Below are positions 1 to 24,522 of a stretch of 64,000 bases of DNA, one piece after another; the stretch's first letter is position 1, and each line of letters starts with the position of its first letter. The position numbers were made by a program, and so were the translations under genes. The stretch comes from Sandaracinus amylolyticus (lineage in GTDB: Bacteria > Myxococcota_A > Polyangia > Polyangiales > Sandaracinaceae). The DNA lies in contig NZ_CP070225.1 of NCBI RefSeq assembly GCF_021631985.1, positions 248,001 to 312,000 of the forward strand, given 5' to 3'. The notes under the pieces are model-generated. The model searched no databases. It was given only the letters and a program-made list of their open reading frames with translations, and was not told the origin of the DNA.

Positions 1-203
1 CCGCGCTCGCGAAGCCGCTGCTCGCCGCAGCGGACGAGAGCGAGGACGCGGTCGTGCGCGTGCTCGAGACGTTGATCTTCGAGCTCAGGGTGATCGCGTT
101 CTGCTGCGGCGCCCGCGACGTCGCGGAGCTGCGCGCGGTGCGCGCGATCGCGCCCGGCGCGGCGATGCCCGGTGTCGTGGATCAGGTGGAGGCCCGTCCG
201 TGA
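1..203 (+). CDS. fni: Type 2 isopentenyl-diphosphate delta-isomerase, C-terminal fragment
   Basis: Partial gene entering from the left edge; the first complete codon is at 3 and the TGA is at 201-203. The 66 visible residues contain an ELRVIAFCCGARDVAELR stretch, which matches the conserved C-terminal helix of FMN-dependent type 2 IPP isomerases (usually ELR-x-AMF-x-GA). In that family the enzyme interconverts IPP and DMAPP in the mevalonate pathway. The stop overlaps the GTG start of the HMG-CoA reductase fusion by 4 bp (GTGA), so the two are probably translationally coupled. Only the tail is visible, so the assignment rests on this motif plus the isoprenoid context; the FMN and substrate sites lie outside the window. 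Confidence 0.7.
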   Translation, partial: ALAKPLLAAADESEDAVVRVLETLIFELRVIAFCCGARDVAELRAVRAIAPGAAMPGVVDQVEARP

Positions 204-2824: not shown

Positions 2825-2851
2825 AGAACGTCAGTCGAGGAGAGAGCGCAG

Positions 2852-5157: not shown

Positions 5158-5164
5158 TGGCCGT

Positions 5165-8100
5165 ATGAGCGGCTCGCACTACGACGTGGCGATCGTCGGT
5201 GCCGGCCCGGCGGGCTGTGCGAGCGCGCTCGCGCATGCGCGCAAAGGCCTGCGCGTGCTGCTGCTCGAGGCCGATCCGCGCAGCTCGGATCGGCTCGCGG
5301 GCGAGTGGCTCCATCCACCGGCGCTCGCGATCCTCGATTCGCTCGGCGTCGATCTGACGCCCGCCACGCCCTATGCGACCGGCAAGGGCTACGTCGTGTT
5401 CCCCGAGGACGGCAGCGAGCCGATCGCTCTGCCGTACGCGGCGGGCCATTTCGGCATGGCGGTCGAGCATGCGGTGCTCGTCGAGACGCTGCGCGCGCAC
5501 TGCGAGCACCACGAGCACATCGAGCTCGTGCCGTGGGCGCGCGCCACGCGCATCGAGGGACAGAGCCTCACCTACGAGCGCCGCAGCGGGACGTCGTCGC
5601 GCACGACGTCGCGCACCGTGAGCGCGCCTTCGATCATCGGAGCGAGCGGTCGTGTCGCATCGGGCCCGCTCGCGACGTCACCGGGCCCGCTCGCGCACGG
5701 CGTCGCCGCGAGCTCGCGCATCGCGGGCATCGCCGTCGAGCATCACGCGCTGCCGTTCGAAGGATTCCTCCACATCTTCCTCGGCGGACCGGGGCCGGTG
5801 ATCGCCTATCGCATCGACGCGCGCCGTGTGCGTGTGCTGTGCGAAGTGCCGCACTCGCTCGCGATCCCGCGCGAGGGCGGACTGGCGCTCTTCGAGGCCT
5901 ATTCGCCAGTGCTGCCGAGTGGGCTGCGCGAGGCGTTCGGGCGTGCGCTCGCGGAGAGCGCGCCTGCCTGGGCGAGTGTCGATCTGCGGCCGCGCGGCGA
6001 CCTCGGGCGCGAAGGTCTCGCGCTGATCGGCGATGCAGCGGGCACCCATCCGCCGCTGCCCGCGATCGGCCTCACGCTCGCGCTCGAAGATGCGGTCGCG
6101 ATCGCGAAGGCGCCGAGCTTCTCGGCCTATCGACGCGAGCGCACGCGGCGCACGCGGGTGCGCGAGATGCTCGCGGTCGGCCTCTACGAGGTGTTCGCGG
6201 ACGACGCCGAAGAGTCGATCGCGATGCGCCGCGCGATCTACGAGCTGTGGCGCGAGAAGCCGCGCGAACGACTGCGCTCGATGGGGTTCCTCTCGGGCGA
6301 GGATCGCAGTCACGTGGGGTTCGGCCGCGCGTTCCTCCGCACGATGCTGCGCAGCTCGCGCGACTTCGTGAAGGACGCGATCGCGACCGGCAACGTGCGC
6401 CACACCGGGCGCGTCGCGAGTGATCTTGGCCAGCGCATGGCGTGGCTGTTCGGCGGCACGCTGCACCTCACGAACGCGCTTCCCGCGCGCACCAAGCAGG
6501 GCCTCGGTGCGCCCCGCACGGCGGAAGAGCGATATGGCGCCGCGCTCCGCGCGTCGACCGCGAAGGGCGAAGTCGTCGGACTGCCGCGCGCGGGGAGCGA
6601 CGACTTCTCGGCGCGCGACTCGCTGCGGCGCGGGGCACGCGCGCTGATTGCGGAGCAGGCCGAGGACGGCTCGTTCGAGGGCGAGGTCGTGTGGTGTCCG
6701 ATGCTCGCCGCCCAGTACGTCATGGGGTGGCACGCGATGGGCCGTCCGATGAGCGCGGAGCGTCGCGCGTCGGTGCTCAAGCACTTCGAGCGCACGCGAC
6801 TGGCCGACGGCACGTGGGGCCTGCACGAGAAGAGCGAGCCCTATCTGTTCGTGACGCTGCTGGTGTTCGTCGCATGCCGGCTGCTCGGTCTCGCGAAGGA
6901 CGATCCGCTGATCGCGCGCGCGCACGAGTTCATCCGTCGTGAGGGCGGCGCAGTGGCGGTGCCCACCTGGGGCAAGCTCTGGCTCGCGCTGCTCAATCTC
7001 TACTCGTGGGACGGAGTCAGCGCGGTATTGCCCGAAGCGTGGCGCGCGCCGCGCTGGCTGCCGTTCCATCCGAGCCGCTTCTACTGCCACACGCGGCTCA
7101 TCTATCTCGGCATGGCGGTGCTCTACGGCGAGAAGTGGAGCGCGCCGGTCACGCCGCGAATCCTCGCGATCCGCGACGAGATCTTCCCCGGAGGATGGGA
7201 GTCCGTCGACTGGGTGAAGGCGCGCGAGACGCTGCGGACCGCCGAGATCCACACTCCGTGGACTCCCGCGCTCCACGTCGGATATCGCGTGCTCGGCGCG
7301 GTCGATCGGCTGCAGTCGCGGGAGAAGCGCGCGACCGTGCTCGCCGAATTGCGCGAGCACATTCGCTACGAGCTGCGCTCGACGAACCACACGTGCATCT
7401 CGCCGGTGAGCGGGCTGCTCGATCAGATCGCGCTCTTCATCGAGGACCCGAACGACCCCGACCTGCGCGTCGCGGCGGAGCGCTTCGAGGGCTGGGTCTG
7501 GGAGGACGAGCTCGACGGCGCGCGCGTCACCGGCGCGCGCAGCGCGTCGTGGGACACGGCCTTCGCCGCGCAGGCGATGGCCGCGGCGGCGCCGCACTGC
7601 GGGAACGACGTGCGCGAGGCGCTTCGCCGCGCCGACGCGTTCCTGGTGACCCAGCAGATCCCGCGCGGCACCGGTCGCGAGCGCGATCACGATCGCATCG
7701 ATCCCACGGGCGGATATTGCTTCGCCGGGGTCTGGCACGGATGGCCGGTGAGCGACTGCACCGCCGAGGCGATGCTCGCGCGCCTGGAGTCGCCCGAGGC
7801 GGATCCGTCGCGCGAGTCGATGGAGGCCGCGACGCGCTTCGTGCTGCGCTGTCAGAACTCCGACGGTGGGTTCGGCAGCTACGAGGCGCGCCGTACCGAC
7901 GTCTCGCTCGAGTGGATCAACCCCGCCGAAATGTTCGGCGACTCGATGACCGAGAAGTCGTACGTCGAGTGCTCGGCATCGTGCATCACCGCGCTCGCGG
8001 CGTTCGTGCATCGCTGGCCCGACAGCGACCTCGCGCGCGAGTGCGAGGCCGCGATCGCGCGCGGTGTCGCCCTGCTGACGCGCATCCAGCGTCCCGATGG

Positions 8101-8602
8101 CTCCTGGCCGGGCATGTGGGGCGTGCACTTCGTGTACGGCACGATGTTCGGCGTGCGCGGCCTGCTCGCGGGAGGCGTGCCCGCGCACGATCCGCGTGTT
8201 CGCCGCGCCTGCCGCTTCCTCGAGGAGCGCCAGCGTCCCGACGGCGCGTGGGGCGAGCACCGCACGAGCGTGATGGTCGGTCGCTACGTCGATCACGACG
8301 AGGGCCAGTCGGTGCAGACGGCGTGGGCGATGACGACGCTCCTCGAGGCGCGTCATCCCGAGTTCGCGCCGATCGAGCGCGCCGCGCGCTGGCTCGCGGC
8401 GAAGCAGTCGGAGAGCGGCACGTGGCCGAAGCAGGAGGCCGAGGGGATCTTCTTCCACACGGCGCTGCTCGATTACGTGCTCTATCGCCGATATTTCCCG
8501 GTCTGGGCGCTCGGTCTCTACGAGTCGCGCCGCGCGGAGCGAGCGAAGTTCCGCGACCACGGCGCCGAGAGCGCGAGCCGCCCGACTCGGATCCACGTCT
8601 GA
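5165..8602 (+). CDS. Squalene-monooxygenase-like flavoprotein fused to oxidosqualene cyclase
   Basis: A single 1145-residue frame. Residues 1-460 form a class A flavin monooxygenase: GAGPAG near 13, GEWLHP at 46-51 (the counterpart of the GE-x-LQPGG motif of squalene epoxidase) and a GDAAG FAD motif with Asp290. Residues about 475-1145 are a full triterpene cyclase: GWPVSDCTAE with general-acid Asp864 followed by Cys, INPAEMFGDSM, YVECSAS, several QW-type repeats (DGSWPGMWG, DGAWGEH, SGTWP) and a C-terminal FPVWALGLYE. DCTAE, not DxDD, marks it as an oxidosqualene cyclase (lanosterol/cycloartenol synthase) rather than squalene-hopene cyclase. The fusion would couple epoxidation with cyclisation. 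The flavin domain's THPPLPAIGL segment departs from the usual HP-LTGGGM, so its own reaction is less certain than the cyclase. Confidence 0.9.
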   Translation: MSGSHYDVAIVGAGPAGCASALAHARKGLRVLLLEADPRSSDRLAGEWLHPPALAILDSLGVDLTPATPYATGKGYVVFPEDGSEPIALPYAAGHFGMAVEHAVLVETLRAHCEHHEHIELVPWARATRIEGQSLTYERRSGTSSRTTSRTVSAPSIIGASGRVASGPLATSPGPLAHGVAASSRIAGIAVEHHALPFEGFLHIFLGGPGPVIAYRIDARRVRVLCEVPHSLAIPREGGLALFEAYSPVLPSGLREAFGRALAESAPAWASVDLRPRGDLGREGLALIGDAAGTHPPLPAIGLTLALEDAVAIAKAPSFSAYRRERTRRTRVREMLAVGLYEVFADDAEESIAMRRAIYELWREKPRERLRSMGFLSGEDRSHVGFGRAFLRTMLRSSRDFVKDAIATGNVRHTGRVASDLGQRMAWLFGGTLHLTNALPARTKQGLGAPRTAEERYGAALRASTAKGEVVGLPRAGSDDFSARDSLRRGARALIAEQAEDGSFEGEVVWCPMLAAQYVMGWHAMGRPMSAERRASVLKHFERTRLADGTWGLHEKSEPYLFVTLLVFVACRLLGLAKDDPLIARAHEFIRREGGAVAVPTWGKLWLALLNLYSWDGVSAVLPEAWRAPRWLPFHPSRFYCHTRLIYLGMAVLYGEKWSAPVTPRILAIRDEIFPGGWESVDWVKARETLRTAEIHTPWTPALHVGYRVLGAVDRLQSREKRATVLAELREHIRYELRSTNHTCISPVSGLLDQIALFIEDPNDPDLRVAAERFEGWVWEDELDGARVTGARSASWDTAFAAQAMAAAAPHCGNDVREALRRADAFLVTQQIPRGTGRERDHDRIDPTGGYCFAGVWHGWPVSDCTAEAMLARLESPEADPSRESMEAATRFVLRCQNSDGGFGSYEARRTDVSLEWINPAEMFGDSMTEKSYVECSASCITALAAFVHRWPDSDLARECEAAIARGVALLTRIQRPDGSWPGMWGVHFVYGTMFGVRGLLAGGVPAHDPRVRRACRFLEERQRPDGAWGEHRTSVMVGRYVDHDEGQSVQTAWAMTTLLEARHPEFAPIERAARWLAAKQSESGTWPKQEAEGIFFHTALLDYVLYRRYFPVWALGLYESRRAERAKFRDHGAESASRPTRIHV

Positions 8603-8619
8603 GCCACTCGGATCTCGAT

Positions 8620-9795
8620 ATGGACGCTCCTCTTCCCGTCAGCGATCTCGGAAATCTGCTCCTCGGCGCGGTGCTCGCGCTGGGGTTCGTGCTCTATCTC
8701 TTCGTCGGCTCGATGGTGGTGCCCGGCCCGGTGCGGCAGGGCGTCGCGCTCTCCGACGGGACCCGCATCTCCTACAAGCTGAACGGGCTCGCGCTCTTCC
8801 TGATCACGGCGGGGCTCGCGGCGCTCGGGACGTGGCTCGGCTTCGTCGATCTCACGCTCCTCCACCGCCACTTCTGGGGGCTCTTCGTCGCGGCGAACGT
8901 GCTCTCGTTCGTGATGACGGCGCAGCTCTTCGTGAGCGGCAAGGACAAGCGCGATGCGCACCGGCATCGCGTCGATCCGAGCCCGCGCGTCACCGGCGTC
9001 GACGCGCACGGCAACGCGACCGGGAGCGCGGCAGGGAGCCAGAGCGCGCTCGGGCTGATCGAGGATCTCTGGTACGGCGTGGAGCTCAATCCGAAGTGGA
9101 TGAGCCTCGACGCGAAGATGTTCAGCTATCGCCCGTCGCTCATCGGACTGGCGCTCTTGAACATGTCGTTCGCCGCGGTGCAGTACGCCAAGTACGGCGA
9201 GCTCTCGCAGGCGATGATCCTCTATCAGGCGTTCACGTTCGTGTACGTCTTCAACTACTTCCAGTTCGAGTACGGGATGCTCTACACGTGGGACATCGTG
9301 GCCGAGCGTTTCGGCTTCATGCTCGTGTGGGGCGATTATGCGTTCGTGCCCTTCGCCTACTCGGTGACCGGCTGGTACCTCGTCGACGAGACCGGTGATC
9401 TGCCTCCCTGGGCGCTGATCGGACTGCCGCTCATGTTCGTCCTGGGGCTCTGGATCTTCCGCGGATCGAACCAACAGAAGGACGAGTTCAAGCGCGATCC
9501 GAAGGTGAAGATCTGGGGCCGTCCCGCGGAGACGATCGGCGGGAAGATCCTGGTCTCGGGCTTCTGGGGAATCGGCCGGAAGCTGAACTACACCGGCGAG
9601 ATCACCGTCTATTGGTCGTTCGTGCTGCTGGCGTGGGGCGAGTCGTTCGTTCCGTTCCTCTTGCCCACCTGGCTCATCTGTCTGCTCGTCCACCGTGCAT
9701 GGCGAGACGACAAGAAGTGTCGCGAGAAGTACGGCCCGCTCTGGGAGCAGTACTGCAAGCGCGCGACCTTCAAGATGATTCCTTTCGTCTACTGA
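8620..9795 (+). CDS. erg24: Sterol C-14(15) reductase, ERG24/DHCR7 family
   Basis: A 391-residue polytopic membrane protein of the ERG4/ERG24 family, with about eight to ten hydrophobic segments. Family features include SYKLNG near the N-terminus, LIEDLWYGVELNP, LNYTGE around Asn323, and a C-terminal KCREKYGPLWEQYCKR, the typical NADPH-binding end. The enzyme would reduce the delta-14 double bond left by CYP51 demethylation. I chose the ATG at 8620, 17 bp after the cyclase stop; the frame is open far upstream, but that stretch is antiparallel shadow of the cyclase. A delta-7 reductase (DHCR7) is a close relative and cannot be excluded by sequence reading; position beside CYP51 favours C-14. 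Confidence 0.85.
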   Translation: MDAPLPVSDLGNLLLGAVLALGFVLYLFVGSMVVPGPVRQGVALSDGTRISYKLNGLALFLITAGLAALGTWLGFVDLTLLHRHFWGLFVAANVLSFVMTAQLFVSGKDKRDAHRHRVDPSPRVTGVDAHGNATGSAAGSQSALGLIEDLWYGVELNPKWMSLDAKMFSYRPSLIGLALLNMSFAAVQYAKYGELSQAMILYQAFTFVYVFNYFQFEYGMLYTWDIVAERFGFMLVWGDYAFVPFAYSVTGWYLVDETGDLPPWALIGLPLMFVLGLWIFRGSNQQKDEFKRDPKVKIWGRPAETIGGKILVSGFWGIGRKLNYTGEITVYWSFVLLAWGESFVPFLLPTWLICLLVHRAWRDDKKCREKYGPLWEQYCKRATFKMIPFVY

Positions 9796-9817
9796 CGCTC
9801 TCACAAACGAGGCAGTC

Positions 9818-12800
9818 ATGCGTGCGAGTCGAAGCAGCTACGACGTCGCCGTCGTGGGCGGTGGTCCCGTCGGTGCGACCACCGCGATCGCGTTCGCGCG
9901 TCGCGGCGCGAAGGTCGCGCTCCTCGAGGCGGATCCCCGCGCATCGCGGCGCTTCGCGGGCGAGTGGCTCCATCCCACGGCGGTCGAGGTGCTCGACGAG
10001 CTGCGGATCGGCCATCTCGACGGGGCGCGGGCGCGCACCGGGTACGGGTTCGTGATCTGTCCCGACGATCGCAGCGCGCCGATCGAGATGCCGTATGCCG
10101 AGGGCATCGCGCTCTCGGCGGAGCACTCCGAGATCGTCGAGGCGATTCGCGACGTCGCGCGCGGTGTGCCGGGGATCGAGTGGATCCCGATGGCGCGCGT
10201 GAGCGGGATCGAGGGCGATCTCCTGCGCTGCGACGATCGTGAGTCGCACACTGCATTCGAATTCCGCGCGGGGCGCATCGTCGGCGCGGACGGTCGTGCG
10301 TCGGTGGTCCGACAGGCGCTCGGCTATCGCGAGAACAGCACGCTGCTCTCCTACATGGCGGCCGTCGAGCTCCGGAATTGCGAGCTGCCCTTCGAGGGAT
10401 TCGGGCACGTCGTGCTCGGCGGTCCGGGGCCCGCGCTCTTCTATCGCATCAGCGACGACGTGATCCGCGGTTGTCTCGACGTGCCGGTGAGCTTCGGCGC
10501 GCGTGCGCGCACGCCGGGTTTCCTGTGGGACTCGTTCCACGCGGTCCTGCCGCCGAAGATGGTCCCTGCGTTCCGCGCGGCGATCGAGCGCGGGCCGAGC
10601 GGATGGGCGGCGAATCGATTCCGCCCGCGCGCGGACTTCGGTCGCGGCGAGACGATGCTCGTCGGCGACGCGCTCGGTCACGTGCACCCGATGACCGCGA
10701 TCGGCATGACGATGGGCATGCTCGATGCGCGCGCGGTGTCGCGCGCCGCGACCGTCGAGGAGTACGAGCGCGAGCGCCGCGGGTACATCCCCGAGCTGCT
10801 CTCGAACGCGCTCTATCACTGCTTCCGGCGCGAAGATCCGAGCGCGACCGAGGTGCGCCGCGCGATGTTCCGCACGCTGCGCGCGAACGACGCGGAGCGG
10901 CGCCGCACGATGATGATCCTCGCCGCGTCGGATCTTCGTCGCCGTAGCTTCGGCAGCGCGTTCCTGAAGATCGCGGCGCAGGCGATCGGCGCCACCGTCG
11001 CGGACGCGACGAAGGACGGCGACCTGCTGCGCGTGCCGGGCGCGCTCTCGCAGTACGGCGAGTGGATGCAGTGGCCCGCGGCGATCGCGGTGCCGCACCG
11101 GCTGCGTGATCGGTATCGCGGCCAGAGCACGCCGACGCACCCGATCCCCGTGCTCTCGCGCTTCGTGCGCACCGCCGATCCACTGCAGCCGCCCGAGGGC
11201 GACGAGCCGCGCGCCGGCGAGCCCGCGGACGTGCCGGTGCAGGACGCGATGGCGCGCGCGCACGGCGTGCTGCTCACCGAGCTCGAGGCGATCGCGCGCG
11301 TGCTCGGCAGCGTGCCGGACGCCGAGGTCGCGGCGCCTGCGGCGCGCATGATCCGCGTGATCACGTCGGGCACGATGCGGCCCGCGATGGCGGCGCGCAT
11401 GACGATCGCGCGGCGCCGTCTCGCGGTCGAGGGCGTGCCGCGCCTCATCGAGACCGGCGCGTGGCGCACCGAGGCGCTCGCGGATCTGCTGCTCCTCCTC
11501 CTCGACGGGAGCGCGTGGGGCGAAGAGCCGATCACCGATCTCGCCGAGGGCGTGCGCGCTCTGCTCGAGTGCCAGACCCACCACGGTGGTTTCGCGACGA
11601 AGACCGCGCGCGACGTGCCGCGCGATCACGAGGGTGATCTCGACGCGACCGCGCTCGCGTGCCGCGCGATCGACGCGGTGCTGCGGCGTCGACCCGGCGC
11701 GTCGGACGCGGACCTCGAGGGCGCGCTCGCGCGTGCCGGCGCGTGGCTCCGCGCTCGACAGAACGACGATGGGAGCTGGCCCGCGATCGCGAAGCTCGGG
11801 GGCGGCGGCGCGCCGCACGTGGTGGCGCGCACCGCGCTCGCGCTCGATGCGCTGATCGCGATCGACGGCAATCCCGGCGAGCCCACGGTGCGGCGCGCGC
11901 TGAAGTGGCTCGCGACCAACGCCGAGGCGTGGTCGGGCGAGAGCGCGTCGATCGCGCTCTCGTCGGCGGTCGTCCGTGCGCTCTGCGCGGCGCGCGCGCC
12001 CTCGAGCGACGCGATGGTCCGCGCGGTGCGCGTGCTCGCCGCGCGCGAGGACCTTGGCTGGCAGGACGCAGCGCACGTCGCCGAGGCGCTCGCGAGCTAC
12101 GACCTGCGCCGTGTGGAGCGCCCCGCGCTGGGACGCACCCGCGCGAAGACCGGCGCGCCGAGCGCGACCGCGGCGGTGTCCACCGAGATCGTCGATGCCG
12201 ACTGGGCGTACTGCAAGCAGGCGCTCGCCGAGGTGTCGCGCACCTTCAGCAAGCCGATCGCGATGTTGCCCGGCAAGCTCGAGGTCGCGGTCACGCTCGG
12301 ATATCTGCTCTGCCGCATCGCGGACACGATCGAGGATCATCCGCTCGTCGATCCGCGCGATCGCGATCGGCTCTTCGCGATGTTCCTCGACGTGCTCGAG
12401 AACGGCGTCGACGCAGAGCCCTTCGAGCGCGGGTTCGACACGATCGATCACGACGACCCCGAGCTCTCGCTGGCGCGCCGCACCCGCGTCGTGATGCGGG
12501 TGTTCGCGGCGCAGAGCGAGCGCACGAGGGACGCGTGCATCCGCTGGGTCAGCGAGATGGCGCGCGGGATGAGCCTCTATTCGCACCGTCGCAAGGGCGA
12601 GGACGGATTCGTCGCGCTGCACACGACGAGCGATCTCGAGCGTTATTGTTATTACGTCGCGGGCACCGTCGGACATCTGCTGACGGATCTCTTCGTCGCG
12701 GAGGTCGGCGCGGACTCGGCGCTCGAGCTGAAGCTGCGCGAGGACGCGGAGGCGTTCGCGTCGGGGCTGCAGCTCGTGAACATCCTCAAGGACGTCACCG

Positions 12801-13249
12801 ACGATCGCGAGCGCGCGTGGAGCTTCATCCCGCGTACCGCGGTCGCGGCGCAGGGGATCACGATCACGAACCTCTGCGACGATGCCCTGCGGCCCAAGGC
12901 GCACGCCGCAGTCGCGCCGCTCTTCGACGTCGCGCGGCGCCAGCTCGACGGCGCGTTGCGATATGCGCTCTCGATTCCGCCGCAGCACACCGGAATCCGG
13001 CTCTTCTGCCTGCTTCCGCTGTGGATGGCGGCGCGGACGCTGGTGGTCGGGCGCGGCAACGACGCGATGTTCGTGCCTGGTCAGGCCGTGAAGATCTCGC
13101 GCGAAGAGGTGGAGTCGATCATCGCGGAGTGCGTGCGCTTCGTCGCCGACGACGACGCGCTGCGCGCTCGTTATGCGCGGCTCTACGACGACGGCGCGAC
13201 GGCGCGCCGCGCGAGCGGATCGCCCTCGGCGATCGCGAACGGACGGTGA
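9818..13249 (+). CDS. Squalene monooxygenase fused through a toroid-like segment to squalene synthase
   Basis: A 1143-residue fusion. Residues 1-430: a flavin monooxygenase with GGGPVG, GEWLHP near 47-52 and GDALGHVHPMTAIGMT (Asp284), close to the squalene epoxidase GDA...HP-LTGGGMT motif. Residues about 470-780: an all-helical region with LLECQTHHGGF and ARQNDDGSWP QW-like motifs, resembling part of a prenyltransferase/cyclase alpha-toroid but lacking DxDD or DCTAE. Residues 793-1100: trans-isoprenyl diphosphate synthase of the squalene/phytoene type, with Asp-rich DTIED (836-840) and NILKDVTDD (Asp992-Asp996). It should condense two FPP to squalene and epoxidise the product. Squalene synthase is otherwise absent from the operon, supporting this role. 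Phytoene synthase-like activity is the alternative. Confidence 0.87.
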   Translation: MRASRSSYDVAVVGGGPVGATTAIAFARRGAKVALLEADPRASRRFAGEWLHPTAVEVLDELRIGHLDGARARTGYGFVICPDDRSAPIEMPYAEGIALSAEHSEIVEAIRDVARGVPGIEWIPMARVSGIEGDLLRCDDRESHTAFEFRAGRIVGADGRASVVRQALGYRENSTLLSYMAAVELRNCELPFEGFGHVVLGGPGPALFYRISDDVIRGCLDVPVSFGARARTPGFLWDSFHAVLPPKMVPAFRAAIERGPSGWAANRFRPRADFGRGETMLVGDALGHVHPMTAIGMTMGMLDARAVSRAATVEEYERERRGYIPELLSNALYHCFRREDPSATEVRRAMFRTLRANDAERRRTMMILAASDLRRRSFGSAFLKIAAQAIGATVADATKDGDLLRVPGALSQYGEWMQWPAAIAVPHRLRDRYRGQSTPTHPIPVLSRFVRTADPLQPPEGDEPRAGEPADVPVQDAMARAHGVLLTELEAIARVLGSVPDAEVAAPAARMIRVITSGTMRPAMAARMTIARRRLAVEGVPRLIETGAWRTEALADLLLLLLDGSAWGEEPITDLAEGVRALLECQTHHGGFATKTARDVPRDHEGDLDATALACRAIDAVLRRRPGASDADLEGALARAGAWLRARQNDDGSWPAIAKLGGGGAPHVVARTALALDALIAIDGNPGEPTVRRALKWLATNAEAWSGESASIALSSAVVRALCAARAPSSDAMVRAVRVLAAREDLGWQDAAHVAEALASYDLRRVERPALGRTRAKTGAPSATAAVSTEIVDADWAYCKQALAEVSRTFSKPIAMLPGKLEVAVTLGYLLCRIADTIEDHPLVDPRDRDRLFAMFLDVLENGVDAEPFERGFDTIDHDDPELSLARRTRVVMRVFAAQSERTRDACIRWVSEMARGMSLYSHRRKGEDGFVALHTTSDLERYCYYVAGTVGHLLTDLFVAEVGADSALELKLREDAEAFASGLQLVNILKDVTDDRERAWSFIPRTAVAAQGITITNLCDDALRPKAHAAVAPLFDVARRQLDGALRYALSIPPQHTGIRLFCLLPLWMAARTLVVGRGNDAMFVPGQAVKISREEVESIIAECVRFVADDDALRARYARLYDDGATARRASGSPSAIANGR

Positions 13250-13257
13250 GGGACCGA

Positions 13258-15036
13258 ATGCAGCTCCGCAGTCTCGTCGATCAGACCGTCAAGCGCGCGA
13301 CCCGTCGCAGCGCGAGCGAGATCCCGAGTGGGCTCCGTCCGCCGCCGCGGCTCTCCGGCGGACTGCCGGTGATGGGGCACAGCGTCGAGTTCGTGCGCGC
13401 CACGATCGAGCTGCTCTTCCGCGCGAACCGCGAGCTCGGCGAGGTCGCCGCGTTCAGCGTGTTCAACCGCGAGATGGTCGCGATGTTCGGGCCCGAGGCA
13501 CACGAGGCGGTGTTCCGTGCGCCCGACGCGGTGCTGAGCCCGACCGAGGCCTACAAGATCATGACGCCGGTCTTCGGCAAGGACGTCGTCTACGACGCGA
13601 CGCCGGAGAAGATGGCGGAGCAGCTCAAGATGCTGCTGCCCGCGCTGAAGGATCGCCGGATGCGCACCTACGGCGAGGCCGTGGTGCACGAGACCGCGGC
13701 GAGCACGCGCGAGTGGGGCACGAGCGGAGTCGTCGACTTCGTCGAGTTCTGTCGCGTCCTCACGAACTTCACCTCGAGCCGCTGTCTGCTCGGCAAGGAG
13801 TTCCGCGAGGGGATGAGCGAGGAATTCGCGCGCGTCTATCACGACCTCGAAGGGGGCGTGACGCCGCTCGCGTACATCGATCCTCACCTGCCGGTGCCGG
13901 CGTTCCGCAAGCGCGACAAGGCGCGGGTGCGGATGGTCGAGATGATCTCCGGCATCGTGCGCGATCGACGCGCGCATCAGCGCACCGGGGAGGACTTCCT
14001 CCAGACGCTGATGGAGTCGAACTACTCGGATGGTCGCGGGCTCAGCGAGCACGAGATCACCGGGCTCCTGCTGGCGGGGATCTTCGCGGGGCACCACACG
14101 AGCTCGGTCACGACGGCGTGGACGCTGCTCGAGCTGCTGCAGAATCCGACTCAGCTCCAGCGCTGCGTCGCCGAGGTCGATCGAGTGTTCGGCGACGGGC
14201 GCCCGGTGAGCCACGCCGCGCTGCGCGAGCTGACCACGATCGAGAACGCGGTGAAGGAAGCGCTCCGGCTGCACCCGCCGCTCTTCATGCTCGTGCGCGT
14301 CGTGAAGCAGGACTTCACGTACAAGCAGTACTTCATTCCCAAGGGGACTTGGATCGTCGTCTCGCCGACGGTCTCGCACCGCATCCCGACGGTGTTCCGC
14401 GATCCCGACGCCTTCGATCCCGATCGGTATCTGCCGGGCCGCGAAGAGGACAAGAAGGACTTCGCGTACATCGCGTTCGGCGGCGGTCGCCACAAGTGCC
14501 TGGGGAACGCGTTCGCGATCCTGCAGATCAAGGCGATCCTCGCGCTCCTGCTCGGGCAGTTCGAGTTCGGGCTCTGCGGCGACGCGATCGCGCCGAGCTT
14601 CCAGGGACTGGTGATCGGGCCGAAGGAGCCCTGTCGAGTTCGTTATCGCCGGCGTGCCCAGCCGAGCGTGACGATGGAGATGGGCACCGAGCTCGCGGCG
14701 GCGGCGAAGGACGCGATCGTCGCCGAGGTGAGCGGCGCGAAGGAAGTGCCGCAGGCGGTGCAGCAGGCCGCGGCGGCGGCGGGCTGCCCGGCGCACGCCC
14801 ATGTGAACGGGGCGAGCGCGAGCAAGGGAGCCTCGCTGCGCGTGAAGGTGGATCGTGATCTCTGCCAAGGGCACGCCGTGTGCGCGTCCGAGGCGCCCGA
14901 GGTCTTCGCCGTCAGCCCCAAGGACCACAAGGTCATGCTCAAGCTCGCGCGACCGCCGGTGGAGCTGCACGACAAGGTGCGGAAGGCCGCGCAGTACTGC
15001 CCGAATCACGTGATTCGAATCGAAGAGACGGACTGA
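13258..15036 (+). CDS. cyp51: CYP51 sterol 14-alpha-demethylase fused to a [3Fe-4S] ferredoxin
   Basis: A 592-residue protein. Residues 1-470 are a cytochrome P450: I-helix AGIFAGHHTSS (273-283), which matches the CYP51 signature, the ExxR pair Glu334/Arg337, and the haem loop FGGGRHKCLG with Cys414. An Ala-rich linker leads to a ferredoxin at about 525-592 with Cys536-x5-Cys542 ... Cys581-Pro, typical of a [3Fe-4S] cluster. The same architecture is known from Methylococcus capsulatus CYP51, where the ferredoxin supplies electrons for removal of the C-14 methyl of lanosterol. The gene begins 8 bp after the squalene synthase fusion and ends one base into the ERG2-like gene (TGATG). Confidence 0.93.
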   Translation: MQLRSLVDQTVKRATRRSASEIPSGLRPPPRLSGGLPVMGHSVEFVRATIELLFRANRELGEVAAFSVFNREMVAMFGPEAHEAVFRAPDAVLSPTEAYKIMTPVFGKDVVYDATPEKMAEQLKMLLPALKDRRMRTYGEAVVHETAASTREWGTSGVVDFVEFCRVLTNFTSSRCLLGKEFREGMSEEFARVYHDLEGGVTPLAYIDPHLPVPAFRKRDKARVRMVEMISGIVRDRRAHQRTGEDFLQTLMESNYSDGRGLSEHEITGLLLAGIFAGHHTSSVTTAWTLLELLQNPTQLQRCVAEVDRVFGDGRPVSHAALRELTTIENAVKEALRLHPPLFMLVRVVKQDFTYKQYFIPKGTWIVVSPTVSHRIPTVFRDPDAFDPDRYLPGREEDKKDFAYIAFGGGRHKCLGNAFAILQIKAILALLLGQFEFGLCGDAIAPSFQGLVIGPKEPCRVRYRRRAQPSVTMEMGTELAAAAKDAIVAEVSGAKEVPQAVQQAAAAAGCPAHAHVNGASASKGASLRVKVDRDLCQGHAVCASEAPEVFAVSPKDHKVMLKLARPPVELHDKVRKAAQYCPNHVIRIEETD

Positions 15037-15599
15037 TGGGATACATCTTCGAGCCCGAGATCCTCCACGACGTGGCGCGGCGAGCGATCGGTCAGCCGAT
15101 CGACGGAGTGATCACCCAGATCGCCGACGAGCTCTCGGAGCGTTATCCGGGGCACATCCTGCCGGCGAAGGATCGCGAGTGGATCTTCAACGTCGCGGGC
15201 GGCGCGATGGGGCAGATGATGGTGCTCCACTCGTCGATCACCGAGTACATCATGATCTTCGGCACGCCGATCGGGACCGAGGGATTCTCCGGGCGATTCG
15301 CGGCCGAGGATCACTTCATGATCCTCGAGGGCGAGCAGTGGAGCTATCGAGAGGGCTCGTTCGAGAAGGAAGTCTATCGGCCCGGTGATCGCAACGTGCT
15401 CCCGCGCGGCGCGGCGAAGGGCTATCGCATGCCCGACAAGTGCTTCGCGCTCGAGTACGCGCGAGGCCTGATCCCGGCGATGCTCCCCTTCGGCCTCGCC
15501 GACGCGATGTCGAGCACGCTCGATGCGACCAGCGTCGCACGGACGTTCAAGGTGTACGCGAAGGCCGTCGTCGGAAACCTCGCGCGCGGGAAGGTCTGA
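15036..15599 (+). CDS. erg2: Sterol C-8 isomerase, ERG2/sigma-1 receptor family
   Basis: A 187-residue member of the ERG2/sigma-1 receptor family. Diagnostic segments are GTPIGTEGFSGRF, FMILEGEQWSY, the acidic VYRPGDRNVLPRGAAKGY and ALEYARGLIPAMLPFGLADA. Yeast Erg2 moves the sterol double bond from C-8 to C-7. The protein lacks the N-terminal membrane helix of eukaryotic homologues and is shorter than yeast Erg2 (about 222 residues). The ATG overlaps the CYP51 stop by one base, so coupling is likely. It is the last gene of the sterol operon. ERG2-type isomerases are uncommon in bacteria, which makes its place here notable. Confidence 0.9.
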   Translation: MGYIFEPEILHDVARRAIGQPIDGVITQIADELSERYPGHILPAKDREWIFNVAGGAMGQMMVLHSSITEYIMIFGTPIGTEGFSGRFAAEDHFMILEGEQWSYREGSFEKEVYRPGDRNVLPRGAAKGYRMPDKCFALEYARGLIPAMLPFGLADAMSSTLDATSVARTFKVYAKAVVGNLARGKV

Positions 15600-19172: not shown

Positions 19173-20278
19173 TGCTGCGCGCGTGGCTCTGTGTGATCGG
19201 CGTCGTCGCGCTCGGTGCCGCAGGGTGCCAGTCCGCAGAGCCCGCGCGCGCGGCCGATCGGTGGAGTGTGGTCGAGGGGCTCGAGGCGTGTGACGTGGAG
19301 CGCCTCGAGTCTCCCTCTCCCGCGTTCGACGTGCCGTGGCACGAAGTGAGCGAGGGAGTGCGTGCGCGCGCGGCAGTGCCGCAATCGCTGGCCGGGTATT
19401 CGGCGGATCGGTTGGCGTCGGCGGCCGAGATCGTCGACGGACGGCTCTGGACGCGCACGTCGCTGTCGGGCCCGGGGCCTCGCTACGAGATCGTTCACGT
19501 CGACGGCGCGGCACGTCTGGTCCTGAGGCTCTCGCGCGACTGTCACGTCACGAGTCGCAAAGCAGGTGTCGCGACGGTGATCGAGATGTTCGCGTCGCCG
19601 GGATCGCACTTGGTCGCGATCGTGGATCCCGAGACCGCGCAGCTCGCGGTGCATCACCAGCCGATCGCGGTGCGCCCGCCGATCGCGGGGTGGTTCCGCC
19701 TCGAGCGCGGCTGGGGCTGGGCCGACGCGCTGGGTGTGCACGTCGTCGAAGGCGGAGACGAGACGCTGGTCGCGGGCACTGCCGGCGCGATTCGCCCGCG
19801 TGGTGAGGGAGACCGCGTGTCGTTCGTGCAGCCGGGGCGCGAGCTCGTGGCGTGGGAGGACGGCTCGCTCTCGCACGTCGTCACGACCGAGGGGGAGCTC
19901 GCCGCGTTCGCCCTCGATGGCGCGGGGGACGTGGCGTGGGTCGAGGGCTCGGGACCGATCGCGCGGATGGGCGCGTTCGAGCAGGCGCGACTGCGATGGT
20001 CGGAGGGAGAGCTCGACCTCACCGGCGTGGCGAGCGGGCCCATCGTGTTGGTCTCGCTGCCGCGCCACATCGTGGGCTCGTCGCCGGGCGATGGCGCGGG
20101 GGTGCCGCCGTCGGTGTGGGTCGTCGATCGCGCGGAGCGATCGATTCATCGTGTCGAGCCGGCCGCGGGCCAGCGCGACGACGTCGTCGCGGGCGTCGAC
20201 GATCGTGTGCTGCTGCAGCGCGTCCGGGACGATCGCGCGCGGTACTTCGAGGAGTGGGTGGAGCTGCAGCTCGAGTGA
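19172..20278 (+). CDS. Hypothetical lipoprotein
   Basis: A 368-residue protein with an N-terminal hydrophobic stretch and a lipobox (LGAAGC, Cys about 19). The rest is beta-strand rich with alternating hydrophobic/Gly turns and no motif I recognise. It overlaps the protease stop (TGATG), so the two are probably co-transcribed; it may be a propeller-like partner of the protease's C-terminal region. Its last codons lie inside the first unit of a 99-bp tandem repeat. Function unknown. Confidence 0.65.
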   Translation: MLRAWLCVIGVVALGAAGCQSAEPARAADRWSVVEGLEACDVERLESPSPAFDVPWHEVSEGVRARAAVPQSLAGYSADRLASAAEIVDGRLWTRTSLSGPGPRYEIVHVDGAARLVLRLSRDCHVTSRKAGVATVIEMFASPGSHLVAIVDPETAQLAVHHQPIAVRPPIAGWFRLERGWGWADALGVHVVEGGDETLVAGTAGAIRPRGEGDRVSFVQPGRELVAWEDGSLSHVVTTEGELAAFALDGAGDVAWVEGSGPIARMGAFEQARLRWSEGELDLTGVASGPIVLVSLPRHIVGSSPGDGAGVPPSVWVVDRAERSIHRVEPAAGQRDDVVAGVDDRVLLQRVRDDRARYFEEWVELQLE

Positions 20279-20482
20279 GAGTCCAAGACTCGGCTCGGCC
20301 GCTCAGGGCCCTCCCGTCCACGTGCTCCGCACGCTCCCGTGCGAGCCCTGCGCGAGCGAGCACTCCAGCTCGAGTGAGCTTCCAAGACTCGGCTCGCCCG
20401 CTCAGGGCCCTCCCGTCCACGTGCTCGGCACGCTCCCGTGCGAGCCCTGCGCGAGCGAGCACTCCAGCTCGAGTGAGCTTCC
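20268..20482 (+). repeat. 99-bp tandem duplication containing the dispersed repeat
   Basis: Two full units (20268-20366 and 20367-20465) and a 17-bp third start at 20466. Each unit begins with AGCTCGAGTGAG, which in unit 1 includes the stop codon of the upstream lipoprotein gene, so the duplication copied the gene end. Each carries the dispersed core (20285-20322, 20384-20421) followed by a GCACG-CTCC-CGTGC hairpin. The units differ at only a few bases, suggesting a recent event. Confidence 0.9.
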
Positions 20483-20516: not shown

Positions 20517-21308
20517 ATGGGGGAGCTCGCCGACGTGACCGAGACGTTGTCGCGCGGGCTCCATCCTGCGTACGTGCTCCCGGTGCTCGCGGGCCTCGCG
20601 CTCGCGGTGCTCTTTCCATCGGGGCGCACATTCACCGATCCCGCGGTGCGGCGGCGCTATCAGGGCCTGCAGCTCGCGACGCTGATCGGGGCGCTGATCG
20701 GCGCGAAGGTCGCCGCGATCATCGGAGACCTGCGGTGGCCGATCGAGCCCATCGAGTCGCCGGCTGCGTTGTTCGCGACCGGTCGGTCGATCACCGGCGG
20801 GCTGCTCTTCGGGTTCCTCACCGCGGAGCTGCTCAAGCCGGTGTTCGGTCATCGCGAGCCGCCGAACGATCGTTTCGCCGCCGTGCTGCCGTTCTCGATC
20901 GCGATCGGGCGGCTGGGATGTTGGTTCGCCGGGTGCTGCAACGGATTGCCCACCGAGAGCGCGCTCGGTCTCCCCGACGAGCACGGCGTGCTGCGGTATC
21001 CGACGGCGCTCTTCGATCTCGCGTTCCACCTCGTGCTCGGCGTGATCTTCGTGGTGCTGCTGCGCCGCGGGGTGCTGCGCGGGCGCCTCTTCGCGATCCA
21101 CCTCGTCGCGTACGGCGTCTTCCGTTTCGGCGTCGAGCCGCTGCGCGACTCGCGCGAATATCTCTTCTCGTTCTCCGCCTATCAGCTCTTCGCCCTCGCG
21201 ATGATCGCGTGCGGCGTGTTCGGTTTCCTGCGTCGCCTCCCCGCGCCGCAGACCGCCTCGACCACGGAGCGCTCCGATGACGTCCGAGCAAGCACCGCCG
21301 CCGCGTGA
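20517..21308 (+). CDS. Lgt-like (prolipoprotein diacylglyceryl transferase family) membrane protein
   Basis: A 263-residue protein with about six or seven hydrophobic segments. It carries the Lgt-family pattern: SITGGLLFGFLTAEL, then AIGRLGCWFAGCCNGLPTE with the conserved Arg-Gly-Cys region, and a late YGVFRFGVEPLR. Canonical Lgt moves diacylglycerol from phosphatidylglycerol to a lipoprotein Cys. Because this copy begins a coupled operon with a ferritin-like protein, a Tes-like radical SAM enzyme and a desaturase, it may be a paralogue that transfers a lipid moiety in membrane-lipid modification rather than the housekeeping Lgt. ATG 20517 is preferred; GTG at 20514 is possible. Confidence 0.75.
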   Translation: MGELADVTETLSRGLHPAYVLPVLAGLALAVLFPSGRTFTDPAVRRRYQGLQLATLIGALIGAKVAAIIGDLRWPIEPIESPAALFATGRSITGGLLFGFLTAELLKPVFGHREPPNDRFAAVLPFSIAIGRLGCWFAGCCNGLPTESALGLPDEHGVLRYPTALFDLAFHLVLGVIFVVLLRRGVLRGRLFAIHLVAYGVFRFGVEPLRDSREYLFSFSAYQLFALAMIACGVFGFLRRLPAPQTASTTERSDDVRASTAAA

Positions 21309-21468
21309 TCCGAACCAAGAAGACGCCGAGCTCGCCAAGACCGCGGCGGTCGGCTGCTTCGCGGGGATGGGCGTCGTCGGCGCGACGATCCTCGTGGTGC
21401 TCGGCGTGGTCGTCGCGATCGTGCTCGCGGGCGCGTTCCTCATCTTCCTGACGTGCAGCGGTCACTGA
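21277..21468 (+). CDS. Small single-pass membrane protein
   Basis: A 63-residue protein: a charged N-terminal 25 residues rich in Pro, Glu and Asp, then a single long hydrophobic helix (about 28-57) and a short LTCSGH tail. It starts within the last codons of the Lgt-like gene (32-bp overlap, different frame) and its stop overlaps the ferritin-like ATG by one base (TGATG). The tight coupling on both sides argues that it is real and belongs to this system, perhaps as a membrane anchor or subunit. No known family recognised. Confidence 0.65.
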   Translation: MTSEQAPPPRDPNQEDAELAKTAAVGCFAGMGVVGATILVVLGVVVAIVLAGAFLIFLTCSGH

Positions 21469-22181
21469 TGCTCGAGCACGCGGCGAAGCTGCGCTGGCAC
21501 CTCGACATCGTCGATCAACCGGCGGTGCACGCGTGGGCGCTCGCGCTCTATCGCGCGGGTGAGCGCCATCCCGAGACCGTCACCGACTACTTCCCGCACA
21601 CCGCGGTGCGCGCGCACTGGCCGGAGCTCGCAGACCAGCTGAAGCGGCACGCGGGCGACGAGCGAGGGCACGCTGCGCTCTACACCCGCGCGATCGAGAA
21701 GCTCGGCGAGCCCGTGCACGACGTCGACGATCACGACGTGTTCAACCACGCGATCCGCGCGCACACGCCGGTGTCGTGGGCGATCGGCGAGGACGACGAG
21801 CGCGACGTGATCCGCCTGAAGGTGGCGCACTTCCTCGCGCACGCGCACCACCTCGAGAAGCGCGTGATGCGCTCGCTCGACTACCACGTCGAGGCGTGCG
21901 CGCGGCGGCGGCGCGACCACGTGCTCTCGGTCGTCGAGCGCGTCCATGCCGACGAGGCGCGTCACGTGCGCACGACGATGGAGTCGCTCGTCGCGCTGAC
22001 GACCGAGGCCGAGCGACGGGTGATCGTCGATCTCCACGTGCGCGCCGAAGCGGCGGCGACGAGCGCGTTCTCGGCGCGACAGACGCGCACCTTCCTCGCG
22101 CGTCTGGGGACGCGCGTGCCCCTCGTGCGGCGCGTGGTGTACGCCGCGTCGGCCTTCGTGATGGAGCAGAGCGGTGGCTGA
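21468..22181 (+). CDS. Ferritin-like diiron protein
   Basis: A 237-residue, mainly helical protein with two ExxH motifs: DERGH in the first half and DEARH in the second, the usual metal ligands of ferritin-like four-helix-bundle proteins. A His-rich LAHAHHLEKR stretch lies between them. Such proteins include ferritins, rubrerythrins and diiron oxidases/desaturases. Here it sits between a membrane protein and a radical SAM enzyme, and its last 8 bp overlap the next gene. A diiron oxidase acting on the same lipid substrate is plausible; iron storage is less likely in this context. The ATG at 21468 is chosen over an upstream GTG (21453) because it is coupled to the preceding stop. Confidence 0.65.
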   Translation: MLEHAAKLRWHLDIVDQPAVHAWALALYRAGERHPETVTDYFPHTAVRAHWPELADQLKRHAGDERGHAALYTRAIEKLGEPVHDVDDHDVFNHAIRAHTPVSWAIGEDDERDVIRLKVAHFLAHAHHLEKRVMRSLDYHVEACARRRRDHVLSVVERVHADEARHVRTTMESLVALTTEAERRVIVDLHVRAEAAATSAFSARQTRTFLARLGTRVPLVRRVVYAASAFVMEQSGG

Positions 22182-23709
22182 CGGGAACACGACGAGCCCC
22201 AAGAAGAAGCTGCGGCTCGGGATGGCGCCCCCGCCGGTGTCGCGCATCGAGCGCATCGCGCGGCTCTCGCGCGAGCTCGCGGAGATGGACGCGGATCGTG
22301 CGATCGCGACGCTCGGCGCGCGGGACGTCGATCGTCCGCTGAAGACGACGGTGAGCCTCTGTCCGACGTGCCTCGCGCACGTTCCCGCGATCGTGTTCGA
22401 GCGGGCAGGGCGCGTGATCATGACCAAGCGGTGTCCCGAGCACGGCGCGAGCGAGGCGCTGATCGAGAGCGATGCGCGGTATTACGCGCTCTCGAACAAG
22501 GATCGGGTGGGACGCCGGTTCGCCGAGGACCGCATCTTCCACATCCCGGAATTCCTGGGCGCGGCGACGGGGTGTTGTGCGCCGGGCGAGACCTGCGACA
22601 CCGGAGATGGCACCGATCAGAGCGCCAATCGGACTTGCACCATCCTCGTGGAGGTGACCGATGCGTGCAATCTCGCGTGCAAGGTCTGTTATTCGGAGAG
22701 CGCGGGAGATCGATATCTGCCGTTCGCCGAATTCCAGAAGACGATTCTCGCGCTGATCGCGCAGAAGGGCCGTCTCGACTCGGTGCAAGTGACGGGCGGG
22801 GAGTCGACGCTCCACCCGCAATTCTGGGAGATGATCGCGTTCCTGTATCGGCAGGAGGGCGTCGGGAAGATCTACGTGCCGACGAACGGGCTCCGCCTCG
22901 CGAAGGAGGAAGAGCGCGCGAAATTCGCACCGTTCGCCGACAAGATCATGGTGCTGCTCCAGTTCGACGCGCTCTCGCGCACCGCGAACCAGACGATCCG
23001 CGGGGCCGAGCCCGCGGATCTGCGGCGCAAGATCATCGAGTCGCTCGACGCGCTGGGCGTGCCGATGCAGCTCACGATGACGCTCGCGCGCGGGGTGAAC
23101 GACGCGGAGCTCGGCGACGTGGTCGACGTCGCGCTCGCGCACGACGCGGTGAAGCTGGTCGCGCTGCAGCCGGTGACGTGGTCGGGGCGCTACGAGCTCG
23201 AGATGGATCCGATGGAGCGACTCACGCTCTCCGACGTCGCGCGCGCGGTGCACGAGCGGGCGCGACTGCGGATGCGCCGCGAGGACTTCGTGCCGATCCC
23301 GTGCAGTCACCCGAATTGCGGGTGGATCACGGTGTTCTTGCGGCGCTTCGGGGCGGTCCACAACATCGTGCGCTACGTCGACATGGAGAAGGCGATGGAG
23401 CGCGTCGCCTACAAGACGCTGATGTCGACGTCGGAGATCCGCGAGGTCGTCGGCACCGACGATCGCTCGGTGATCCACAAGGTCGCGGGGTGGATCGGCG
23501 GGCGGCTGGTGAAGTCGACCGACATGTTCTCGATCGCGATCAAGCCGTTCATGGATCGTTACTCGTACGATCAGGATCGGATCGCGAACTGCTGCCATCA
23601 CATCGCGGACACGCAGGGACGCGCGCGCAGCTTCTGCGAGTACAACGCGCTCGATCGTCGATCCGACCCGTGGTCGAATTTCCCGCGCATCGAGGAGCTG
23701 CAGCGATAG
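22174..23709 (+). CDS. Tes-like radical SAM enzyme
   Basis: A 511-residue radical SAM protein. The [4Fe-4S]/SAM site is Cys165-x3-Cys169-x2-Cys172 (CNLACKVC), followed by a GGE motif (VTGGESTLHP). The N-terminus has a metal-binding knuckle: Cys63-x2-Cys66 ... Cys87-Pro-Glu-His. The C-terminal half has PCSHPNCGW and a final Cys cluster (NCCHHI ... SFCEYN), suggesting auxiliary Fe-S clusters. The N-terminal CPEHG knuckle and Cys-rich end resemble the Tes family, whose archaeal members join two lipid tails to make tetraether lipids; bacterial relatives have been linked to membrane-spanning lipids. Its GTG start overlaps the ferritin-like gene by 8 bp. Family is fairly sure; the substrate is inference. 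Confidence 0.75.
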   Translation: MADGNTTSPKKKLRLGMAPPPVSRIERIARLSRELAEMDADRAIATLGARDVDRPLKTTVSLCPTCLAHVPAIVFERAGRVIMTKRCPEHGASEALIESDARYYALSNKDRVGRRFAEDRIFHIPEFLGAATGCCAPGETCDTGDGTDQSANRTCTILVEVTDACNLACKVCYSESAGDRYLPFAEFQKTILALIAQKGRLDSVQVTGGESTLHPQFWEMIAFLYRQEGVGKIYVPTNGLRLAKEEERAKFAPFADKIMVLLQFDALSRTANQTIRGAEPADLRRKIIESLDALGVPMQLTMTLARGVNDAELGDVVDVALAHDAVKLVALQPVTWSGRYELEMDPMERLTLSDVARAVHERARLRMRREDFVPIPCSHPNCGWITVFLRRFGAVHNIVRYVDMEKAMERVAYKTLMSTSEIREVVGTDDRSVIHKVAGWIGGRLVKSTDMFSIAIKPFMDRYSYDQDRIANCCHHIADTQGRARSFCEYNALDRRSDPWSNFPRIEELQR

Positions 23710-24522
23710 GTGCGCTCGCTCGCGATCGTCTATCTCGGGCTCCTGATCATCGCGCCGCTCTGCGCGCTGGCGCAGCGTCTCCGGCCGAGCGCGACGCCCG
23801 CACCGCGTGTGCTGTCGCGGTCTCGGCGCGTCGACTGGCTCTATTGGATCGTCACGCCGCTCGGCACCGGGTTCCTCACGCGCGCCGCGACGCTGACGTT
23901 CGCGGCGATGGTCGTGCTCGCGCTCGGGTGGGGCGATCTCGAGGCGCTGCTCGACGTGTTCCACGCGCGCAGTCCGCTGCCCTTCGCGCGGTGGCCGCTC
24001 TGGGCGCAATTCCCGACTGCGATCGTAATCGCGGACTTCGTGTCGTACTGGAGCCACCGCGCGCGCCATCACGCGCGCTTCTTCCCGCTCCACGCGGTGC
24101 ATCACTCCGCGCGTGAGCTCGACTGGCTCGCTGCGGCGCGCATGCACCCGCTCGACGATCTCGTCGACAACGTCGCGGTGACGCTGCCGATCCTGCTGCT
24201 CGGCTTCGATCCGGTGGTGTTCGTCGCGATCGGCCCCGCGCTGCTGCTGCACACGCTCTACCTGCACAGCGCGGTGCAGCTCTCGCTCGGGCCCCTCCGC
24301 TACGTGATCGCGACGCCCGATTTTCACCGCTGGCACCACGCGATCGAGCCCGAGGCGCAGGGCTCGAACTACGGCGGCGTGCTGGCGATCTGGGACGTGA
24401 TGTTCGGCACGTTCCGGATGCCGCGCGATCGCGCGCCGAGCGCGTTCGGGGTCGAGCCGCCGATCGACGACTCGCTGCGGGCGCAGCTGGTGCGCCCGCT
24501 GGAGCGCGTCATCCGCGCTTGA
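23710..24522 (+). CDS. Sterol desaturase / fatty acid hydroxylase superfamily membrane protein
   Basis: A 270-residue polytopic protein with three histidine boxes: SHRARHH, HAVHHS and HRWHH, the diiron ligands of the fatty acid hydroxylase/sterol desaturase superfamily. Several hydrophobic helices flank them. It begins at a GTG immediately after the radical SAM stop (0 bp gap), so it belongs to that operon. Two roles are possible: modifying the lipid made by this operon, or acting as the sterol C-5 desaturase missing from the sterol cluster 8 kb upstream. Members also hydroxylate carotenoids or ether lipids, so the reaction cannot be fixed from sequence. Its end overlaps the convergent minus-strand gene by 14 bp. 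Confidence 0.8.
   Translation: MRSLAIVYLGLLIIAPLCALAQRLRPSATPAPRVLSRSRRVDWLYWIVTPLGTGFLTRAATLTFAAMVVLALGWGDLEALLDVFHARSPLPFARWPLWAQFPTAIVIADFVSYWSHRARHHARFFPLHAVHHSARELDWLAAARMHPLDDLVDNVAVTLPILLLGFDPVVFVAIGPALLLHTLYLHSAVQLSLGPLRYVIATPDFHRWHHAIEPEAQGSNYGGVLAIWDVMFGTFRMPRDRAPSAFGVEPPIDDSLRAQLVRPLERVIRA

Follow-up and report, generated by a model that had tools for sequence, protein, structure and literature searches.

Introduction

The tetraether synthase Tes (also GDGT-MAS; MJ0619, PDB 7tol) is a radical S-adenosylmethionine (SAM) enzyme that couples lipid tails, and its bacterial homologues are known as a group. These homologues have been proposed, without proof, for the synthesis of branched glycerol dialkyl glycerol tetraethers (brGDGTs); hundreds of them serve surveys as possible markers of membrane-spanning lipids, and none has a confirmed activity (PMC8941075, PMC11868695). 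A second well-described lipid enzyme is Lgt, the prolipoprotein diacylglyceryl transferase, which carries out lipoprotein lipidation. In the Escherichia coli protein, substitutions of His103 and Asn146 abolish activity, and arginines hold the phosphatidylglycerol (PG) head group (PMC8689077, PMC4728403). Here we describe an operon of Sandaracinus amylolyticus in which relatives of both enzymes are encoded together with a small membrane protein, a ferritin-like diiron protein and a relative of lipid hydroxylases. The operon lies on the + strand of a 64,000-nucleotide stretch, hereafter the window (contig NZ_CP070225.1, positions 248001-312000 of a 10.96 Mb genome), and it probably builds a membrane lipid that has yet to be described.

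A five-gene unit inherited across phyla

The operon comprises, in order, LGTL (20517..21308), coding for an Lgt-family membrane protein, SMP (21277..21468), for a 63-residue small membrane protein, FER (21468..22181), for the ferritin-like protein, RSAM (22174..23709), for a radical SAM protein of the Tes/TrsS family, and FAH (23710..24522), for an accessory membrane protein of the fatty acid hydroxylase superfamily. The initial annotation of this DNA had placed five coupled open reading frames here, and indeed every junction overlaps or abuts (-32, -1, -8 and 0 nt, respectively).

We then looked for the same gene order in other genomes. It was found in two further lineages of Myxococcota and in a gammaproteobacterium, and its core in planctomycetes; the related loci belong to Myxococcota, to Roseiconus nitratireducens and a second planctomycete, and to one Lysobacterales (gammaproteobacterium) genome. 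The window and its sister species (L067) have the order LGTL-SMP-FER-RSAM-FAH, which recurs with an additional upstream gene for a four-transmembrane protein (TM4) in another member of the Myxococcota (L070) and in the gammaproteobacterium (L050). At the planctomycete loci L088 and L089 the order is TM4-LGTL-SMP-FER-RSAM, FAH being found beside neither copy, and at L071 it is FAH-TM4-LGTL-SMP-FER-RSAM. The remaining loci are partial or rearranged: the short contig L068 carries the end of LGTL followed by SMP, FER and RSAM, L047/L074 and L048 have SMP-FER-RSAM-FAH with no adjoining LGTL, and in genome G013 LGTL-SMP-FER (L069) and RSAM (L073) lie on separate contigs. FAH was found at seven loci, the gammaproteobacterial one included. 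TM4, which stands just upstream of LGTL or overlaps it at L050 (3912-4352), L070, L071, L088 and L089, encodes a protein with conserved His, Glu and Asp residues that matched no Pfam family. It occurs outside the Sandaracinus lineage and is duplicated in planctomycetes; a single query, run without a positive control, found no copy in the genome of the window. The core of the set is LGTL, SMP, FER and RSAM, whereas FAH and the four-transmembrane protein are accessory.

The genes were also found to be inherited together rather than independently, contrary to the first outcome that the initial annotation had named as refuting its proposal. Among 379 Myxococcota genomes the FER profile matches eight, the RSAM profile matches eight and both match in seven, with one exception each way (a partial RSAM only in G302 and a distant FER only in G346). 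The corresponding Fisher p value, about 3e-13, is overstated because the genomes are related, a weakness from which the loci in other phyla are free. The set is rare, with two of 392 planctomycetes and one of 369 Gammaproteobacteria, counts that take in the genomes that served as search centres. Since gene order and co-inheritance recur across phyla, the arrangement is more than chance: the genes form a real unit, inherited together in at least three phyla.

RSAM belongs to the Tes/TrsS family but is not Tes

RSAM combines the Tes-type zinc ribbon (PF23545) with a radical SAM domain (PF04055), and among solved structures Tes (7tol, E 4e-45) is its nearest match. The cofactor map of Tes (PMC9433317) was used for a residue-level comparison, which revealed the same domain plan in both proteins. 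RSAM keeps the rubredoxin-type ligands C63-C66-C87-H90 (CX2CX20CX2H), in which C87-H90 is the CPEHG knuckle that had been picked out in the initial annotation, and the SAM cluster C165-C169-C172 (CX3CX2C). Of its C-terminal cysteines (C382, C473, C474 and C488), those that align with the C-terminal cluster cysteines of Tes are kept as well. However, the [Fe4S4]N motif of Tes, CX3CX2CX2H (C73, C77, C80 and a His), is absent in 11 of 11 members of the RSAM family. A CC..C motif stands in its place, and C134, C135, C141 and C155 are invariant in a seven-sequence RSAM alignment. Moreover, Met439 and Tyr459, both invariant in 1000 archaeal Tes, are replaced across the RSAM family, the former by Lys and the latter by Ile, Leu or Thr (Ile in the window protein).

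Family scores and phylogeny point in the same direction. The NCBIfam Tes model NF045702 gives 205.5 bits against a cut-off of 450, and the best NCBIfam score, that of TrsS (NF045646), is 228.3 bits against a cut-off of 490. In a tree of 77 proteins, the window RSAM falls in a clade of 11 proteins with 100/100 support, and a 100/100 branch parts this clade from archaeal Tes, from a planctomycete Tes (L116) and from a Myxococcota group. The joining of L017/L114 to the window clade is unsure because the tree program warned of long branches; the separation from Tes is independent of that join. A structure prediction made from five sequences reached a mean confidence (pLDDT) of only 52.8. Scores below the cut-offs, a separate clade and the lack of conservation of the [Fe4S4]N motif, Met439 and Tyr459 place RSAM, by sequence, within the Tes/TrsS family but outside the characterised Tes clade. 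The earlier description of the protein as Tes-like holds for the superfamily and fails for Tes itself.

Two other activities must be weighed here. RSAM might join two acyl tails end to end in the manner of Tes/Mss, with the outer-leaflet head group left to LGTL, and the operon would then make membrane-spanning lipids. Myxobacteria do make iso-branched and ether lipids, although we know of no membrane-spanning lipid here. The homology with Tes favours this idea, as does the proposal of Zeng et al. that bacterial Tes homologues act in brGDGT synthesis (PMC8941075), but the position of RSAM outside the clade of archaeal Tes and its bacterial relatives speaks against it. So does the replacement of Met439 and Tyr459, even though the M439A variant of Tes is still active (PMC9433317). 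We regard end-to-end joining as the main role of the operon as doubtful, and the recurrent Lgt-like partner described below suggests that bacterial Tes homologues should not be taken for tetraether synthases without proof.

The best-scoring family, TrsS, has to our knowledge no assigned function. RSAM is not a selenoprotein, unlike TrsS, since the window gene has no in-frame stop. It is conceivable that RSAM acts on a soluble cofactor or on a protein, as may hold for TrsS, the membrane proteins of the operon merely anchoring it. MJ0619 itself was once taken for a pterin methylase, from which the family name HMPTM derives, and it is TrsS rather than Tes that gives RSAM its best NCBIfam score. 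Nevertheless, MJ0619 has been re-identified as a lipid enzyme (PMC9433317), and RSAM is repeatedly paired with an Lgt-like family that binds PG and with a relative of lipid hydroxylases. Together these points make such a substrate improbable.

Two further Tes-family groups were encountered in these searches. The planctomycete protein L116 scores 576.6 bits with the NCBIfam Tes model (cut-off 450) and is likely, from this score, a true Tes in a bacterium. A separate Tes-family clade has its radical SAM genes as tandem pairs without an Lgt-like partner (L015, L019/L076, L021, L024-L026 and L110-L112), L076 being a triplet.

LGTL has lost catalytic residues of Lgt and recurs beside radical SAM genes

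LGTL is assigned to the Lgt family by PF01790 (81.7 bits, cut-off 24.9; E 6.6e-23). In a motif alignment of 38 proteins, its R132 corresponds to Arg143 of E. coli Lgt, and its FRF..E..R motif supplies the equivalents of Arg239, Glu243 and Arg246. In contrast, LGTL has GRSITGG where Lgt has HGGL, and so lacks His103, and a Cys takes the place of Asn146 within a GC..GCC motif (GRLGCWFAGCC). This pattern is general: among 33 Lgt-family proteins encoded near RSAM-family genes, the equivalents of Arg143 and Arg239 are present in all 33, the HGGL histidine is absent from all 33 and Asn146 is Cys in all 33. A canonical Lgt, with SHGG and RLGNF, is encoded elsewhere in the same genome (L044, C1:1153616-1154428). 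LGTL is therefore probably, to judge from these residues, an Lgt relative that has departed from lipoprotein lipidation, and it may still bind PG. Whether it could complement lgt had been raised in the initial annotation; such complementation is unlikely because the essential His103 and Asn146 are lost.

In order to see how far the partnership extends, 199 planctomycete genomes were searched with L083, a bacterial Tes homologue distinct from RSAM. At E values no higher than 2.4e-80 this search found 20 loci, and in 17 of them an Lgt-like gene lies at most 1.5 kb from the radical SAM gene; the two genes share a strand in every case, and either of them may come first. Two of the three remaining loci are near a contig end. 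In Myxococcota the pairing is found at L075/L018, L077/L029, L078/L027, L079/L016, L083 and L084, with a partial match at L023, while no Lgt-like gene was present at 15 other loci of that phylum, nine of them Tes-near (L030-L038) and six with paired paralogues. Chance adjacency is very unlikely given that the pattern is clade-specific. A large proportion of the bacterial Tes homologues tested thus have an Lgt-like gene as a recurrent neighbour. Long open frames at L094 and L101 were considered as possible fusions of the two genes and rejected, the genes being in different frames and merely overlapping or abutting.

The diiron, small membrane and hydroxylase-like proteins

The two ExxH sites of FER seen in the initial annotation, E65/H68 and E163/H166, are completed by E32 and E130. 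The resulting ligand set (E, ExxH, E, ExxH) is invariant in 11 of 11 homologues. These ligands are common to FER and the bacterioferritin/rubrerythrin/R2 superfamily. An AlphaFold model (pLDDT 87) predicts a four-helix fold that may be ferritin-like, but no sequence or fold match to that superfamily is significant. In a Foldseek search the best PDB matches are bacterioferritins at E 0.035; probabilities were close to 1 and target TM-scores reached 0.71. The Pfam ferritin-like match (E 0.019) is under the Pfam cut-off, and no Pfam or NCBIfam family scored over its cut-off. FER appears to represent an undescribed diiron family.

SMP was recognised as an open reading frame with counterparts at other loci and has no Pfam match. 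Its C-terminal half is hydrophobic and ends in FLIFLTCSGH. The genes of the counterparts, which encode about 40 to 130 residues, precede FER, with or without LGTL on their other side. Little is conserved among the counterparts except a Cys where the last hydrophobic helix ends on its C-terminal side, and this Cys is present in every counterpart found (FLTCSGH, LLTCMGH, LLTCAGH, AFTCTR, AAACGGCRR, FALCGA, VAVCGSH, FGLCVAG, AGMCGLSFR and SACFIIFNV). At this position the Cys could be a site of lipidation, could bind a metal or form a disulphide, or could contribute to packing.

SMP resembles a lipoprotein signal peptide without a mature part, which raises the idea that LGTL moves a diacylglyceryl group to its C-terminal Cys and that the lipid or the peptide is altered by the remaining enzymes while held there. 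The constant place of the Cys and the presence of an Lgt-family partner with matching geometry are what such a lipid carrier would require. On the other hand, LGTL lacks the His103 that is essential for thiol lipidation, lipobox likeness is seen in just some SMP sequences, the topology of SMP could put the Cys inside, and no small protein is recognised with the Lgt-like partners of the wider family. A carrier of this type is, in our opinion, unlikely.

FAH, the last protein of the operon, had been called a desaturase. The three His boxes noted in it are real (HRARHH, HAVHH and HRWHH), but Pfam places the protein in the fatty acid hydroxylase superfamily (PF04116, 100.9 bits, E 1e-28). The ornithine lipid hydroxylase OlsE shares this domain and the three boxes, whereas FAH reaches only 122 bits against the NCBIfam OlsE cut-off of 475.

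A proposed lipid-editing pathway

We propose that the operon edits PG-derived lipids by radical and oxygen-dependent chemistry, a reading that we put at even chances. LGTL would bind PG via the arginines common to it and Lgt, and would transfer or present the diacylglycerol part; with His103 lost, the usual lipoprotein chemistry would not be the route. The 5'-deoxyadenosyl radical formed by RSAM would attack an unactivated acyl-chain carbon by hydrogen abstraction, and RSAM, aided by its C-terminal cluster, would form a new bond at that carbon (C-C, C-S or a desaturation). FER and FAH would add oxygen-dependent steps to the same chain or to the head, and SMP would serve as a subunit, or as an acceptor via its C-terminal Cys. 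Joining of tail to tail is a possible outcome of this chemistry. The observations comprise the gene anatomy, the cofactor motifs, the lost catalytic residues and the co-inheritance, while the substrate, the order of the steps and the product are our proposal.

Several lines of evidence favour lipid editing. The five-gene order is shared by the window, L067, L070 and L050, and LGTL-SMP-FER-RSAM by L088 and L089; RSAM and FER are tightly co-inherited; the link between RSAM and LGTL recurs; and LGTL keeps the arginines that hold PG. In addition, the nearest solved relative of RSAM is an enzyme that couples lipid tails, and FAH is a relative of OlsE-like lipid hydroxylases. Other points weigh against the proposal. 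We know of no member of the RSAM branch with an established substrate, and the chemistry of RSAM may differ from that of Tes because RSAM has neither Met439 nor Tyr459 and its [Fe4S4]N motif is altered. Lgt acts at the outer face of the membrane, whereas RSAM, as a radical SAM protein, has to be in the cytoplasm. Some loci lack FAH or the four-transmembrane protein, and no lipid data for the carrier organisms were found in the literature searched.

More broadly, we put forward as a tentative idea, somewhat short of an even bet, that these loci represent an unrecognised class of bacterial lipid pathway. Lgt-family proteins that have lost lipoprotein chemistry would here partner radical SAM enzymes of the Tes family to make a new tail-modified or carrier-bound lipid. 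The pathway would be widespread in both Myxococcota and Planctomycetota, and the window operon would be its oxygen-using, diiron-containing form. As already supposed in the initial annotation, the system appears unrecognised: neither the gene set nor the RSAM-LGTL pairing is described in the literature searched, although this was largely without subscription journals and preprints and is weak evidence of novelty. The operon offers a compact gene set whose product should be accessible to gene deletion and lipidomics.

The sterol neighbourhood and other features

A sterol operon lies upstream of LGTL, at 200-15036 (+) of the window plus a last gene, 15036-15599 (+), for an ERG2/sigma-1-receptor-like protein (PF04622, E 4.8e-74) that is a candidate C-8 sterol isomerase. 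Its proximity had been noted before and is even closer in the sister species (G001), where LGTL starts 45 nt after the ERG2-like gene and the LGTL operon forms the tail of the sterol operon. In the window, two surface-protein genes that are absent from the sister species part the two operons. The LGTL operon could accordingly be an extension of sterol biosynthesis that modifies sterols or triterpenoids, and the superfamily of FAH does include sterol oxidases. However, conservation of the sterol link beyond the genus was rejected, as the sequence fetched around the other loci, some of them from other genera of the same family, contains no sterol genes, and the planctomycete and gammaproteobacterial copies stand alone. 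Sterol modification is therefore highly improbable, and the link, which is not found outside the genus, is better described as two lipid operons brought together within one genus.

Gene fusions are frequent in the sterol operon: HMG-CoA reductase is joined to an SdmB-like domain, one FAD monooxygenase to oxidosqualene cyclase, another to squalene synthase, and a P450 carries a C-terminal ferredoxin-like part. Just 5' of LGTL, the window contains a 99-bp tandem duplication (20264-20461) whose copies are 95% identical. Finally, the same genome holds an unusually dense island of radical SAM genes at C1:7387000-7456000 (L129-L132), with about 25 Radical_SAM matches in about 68 kb, one of them B12-binding.

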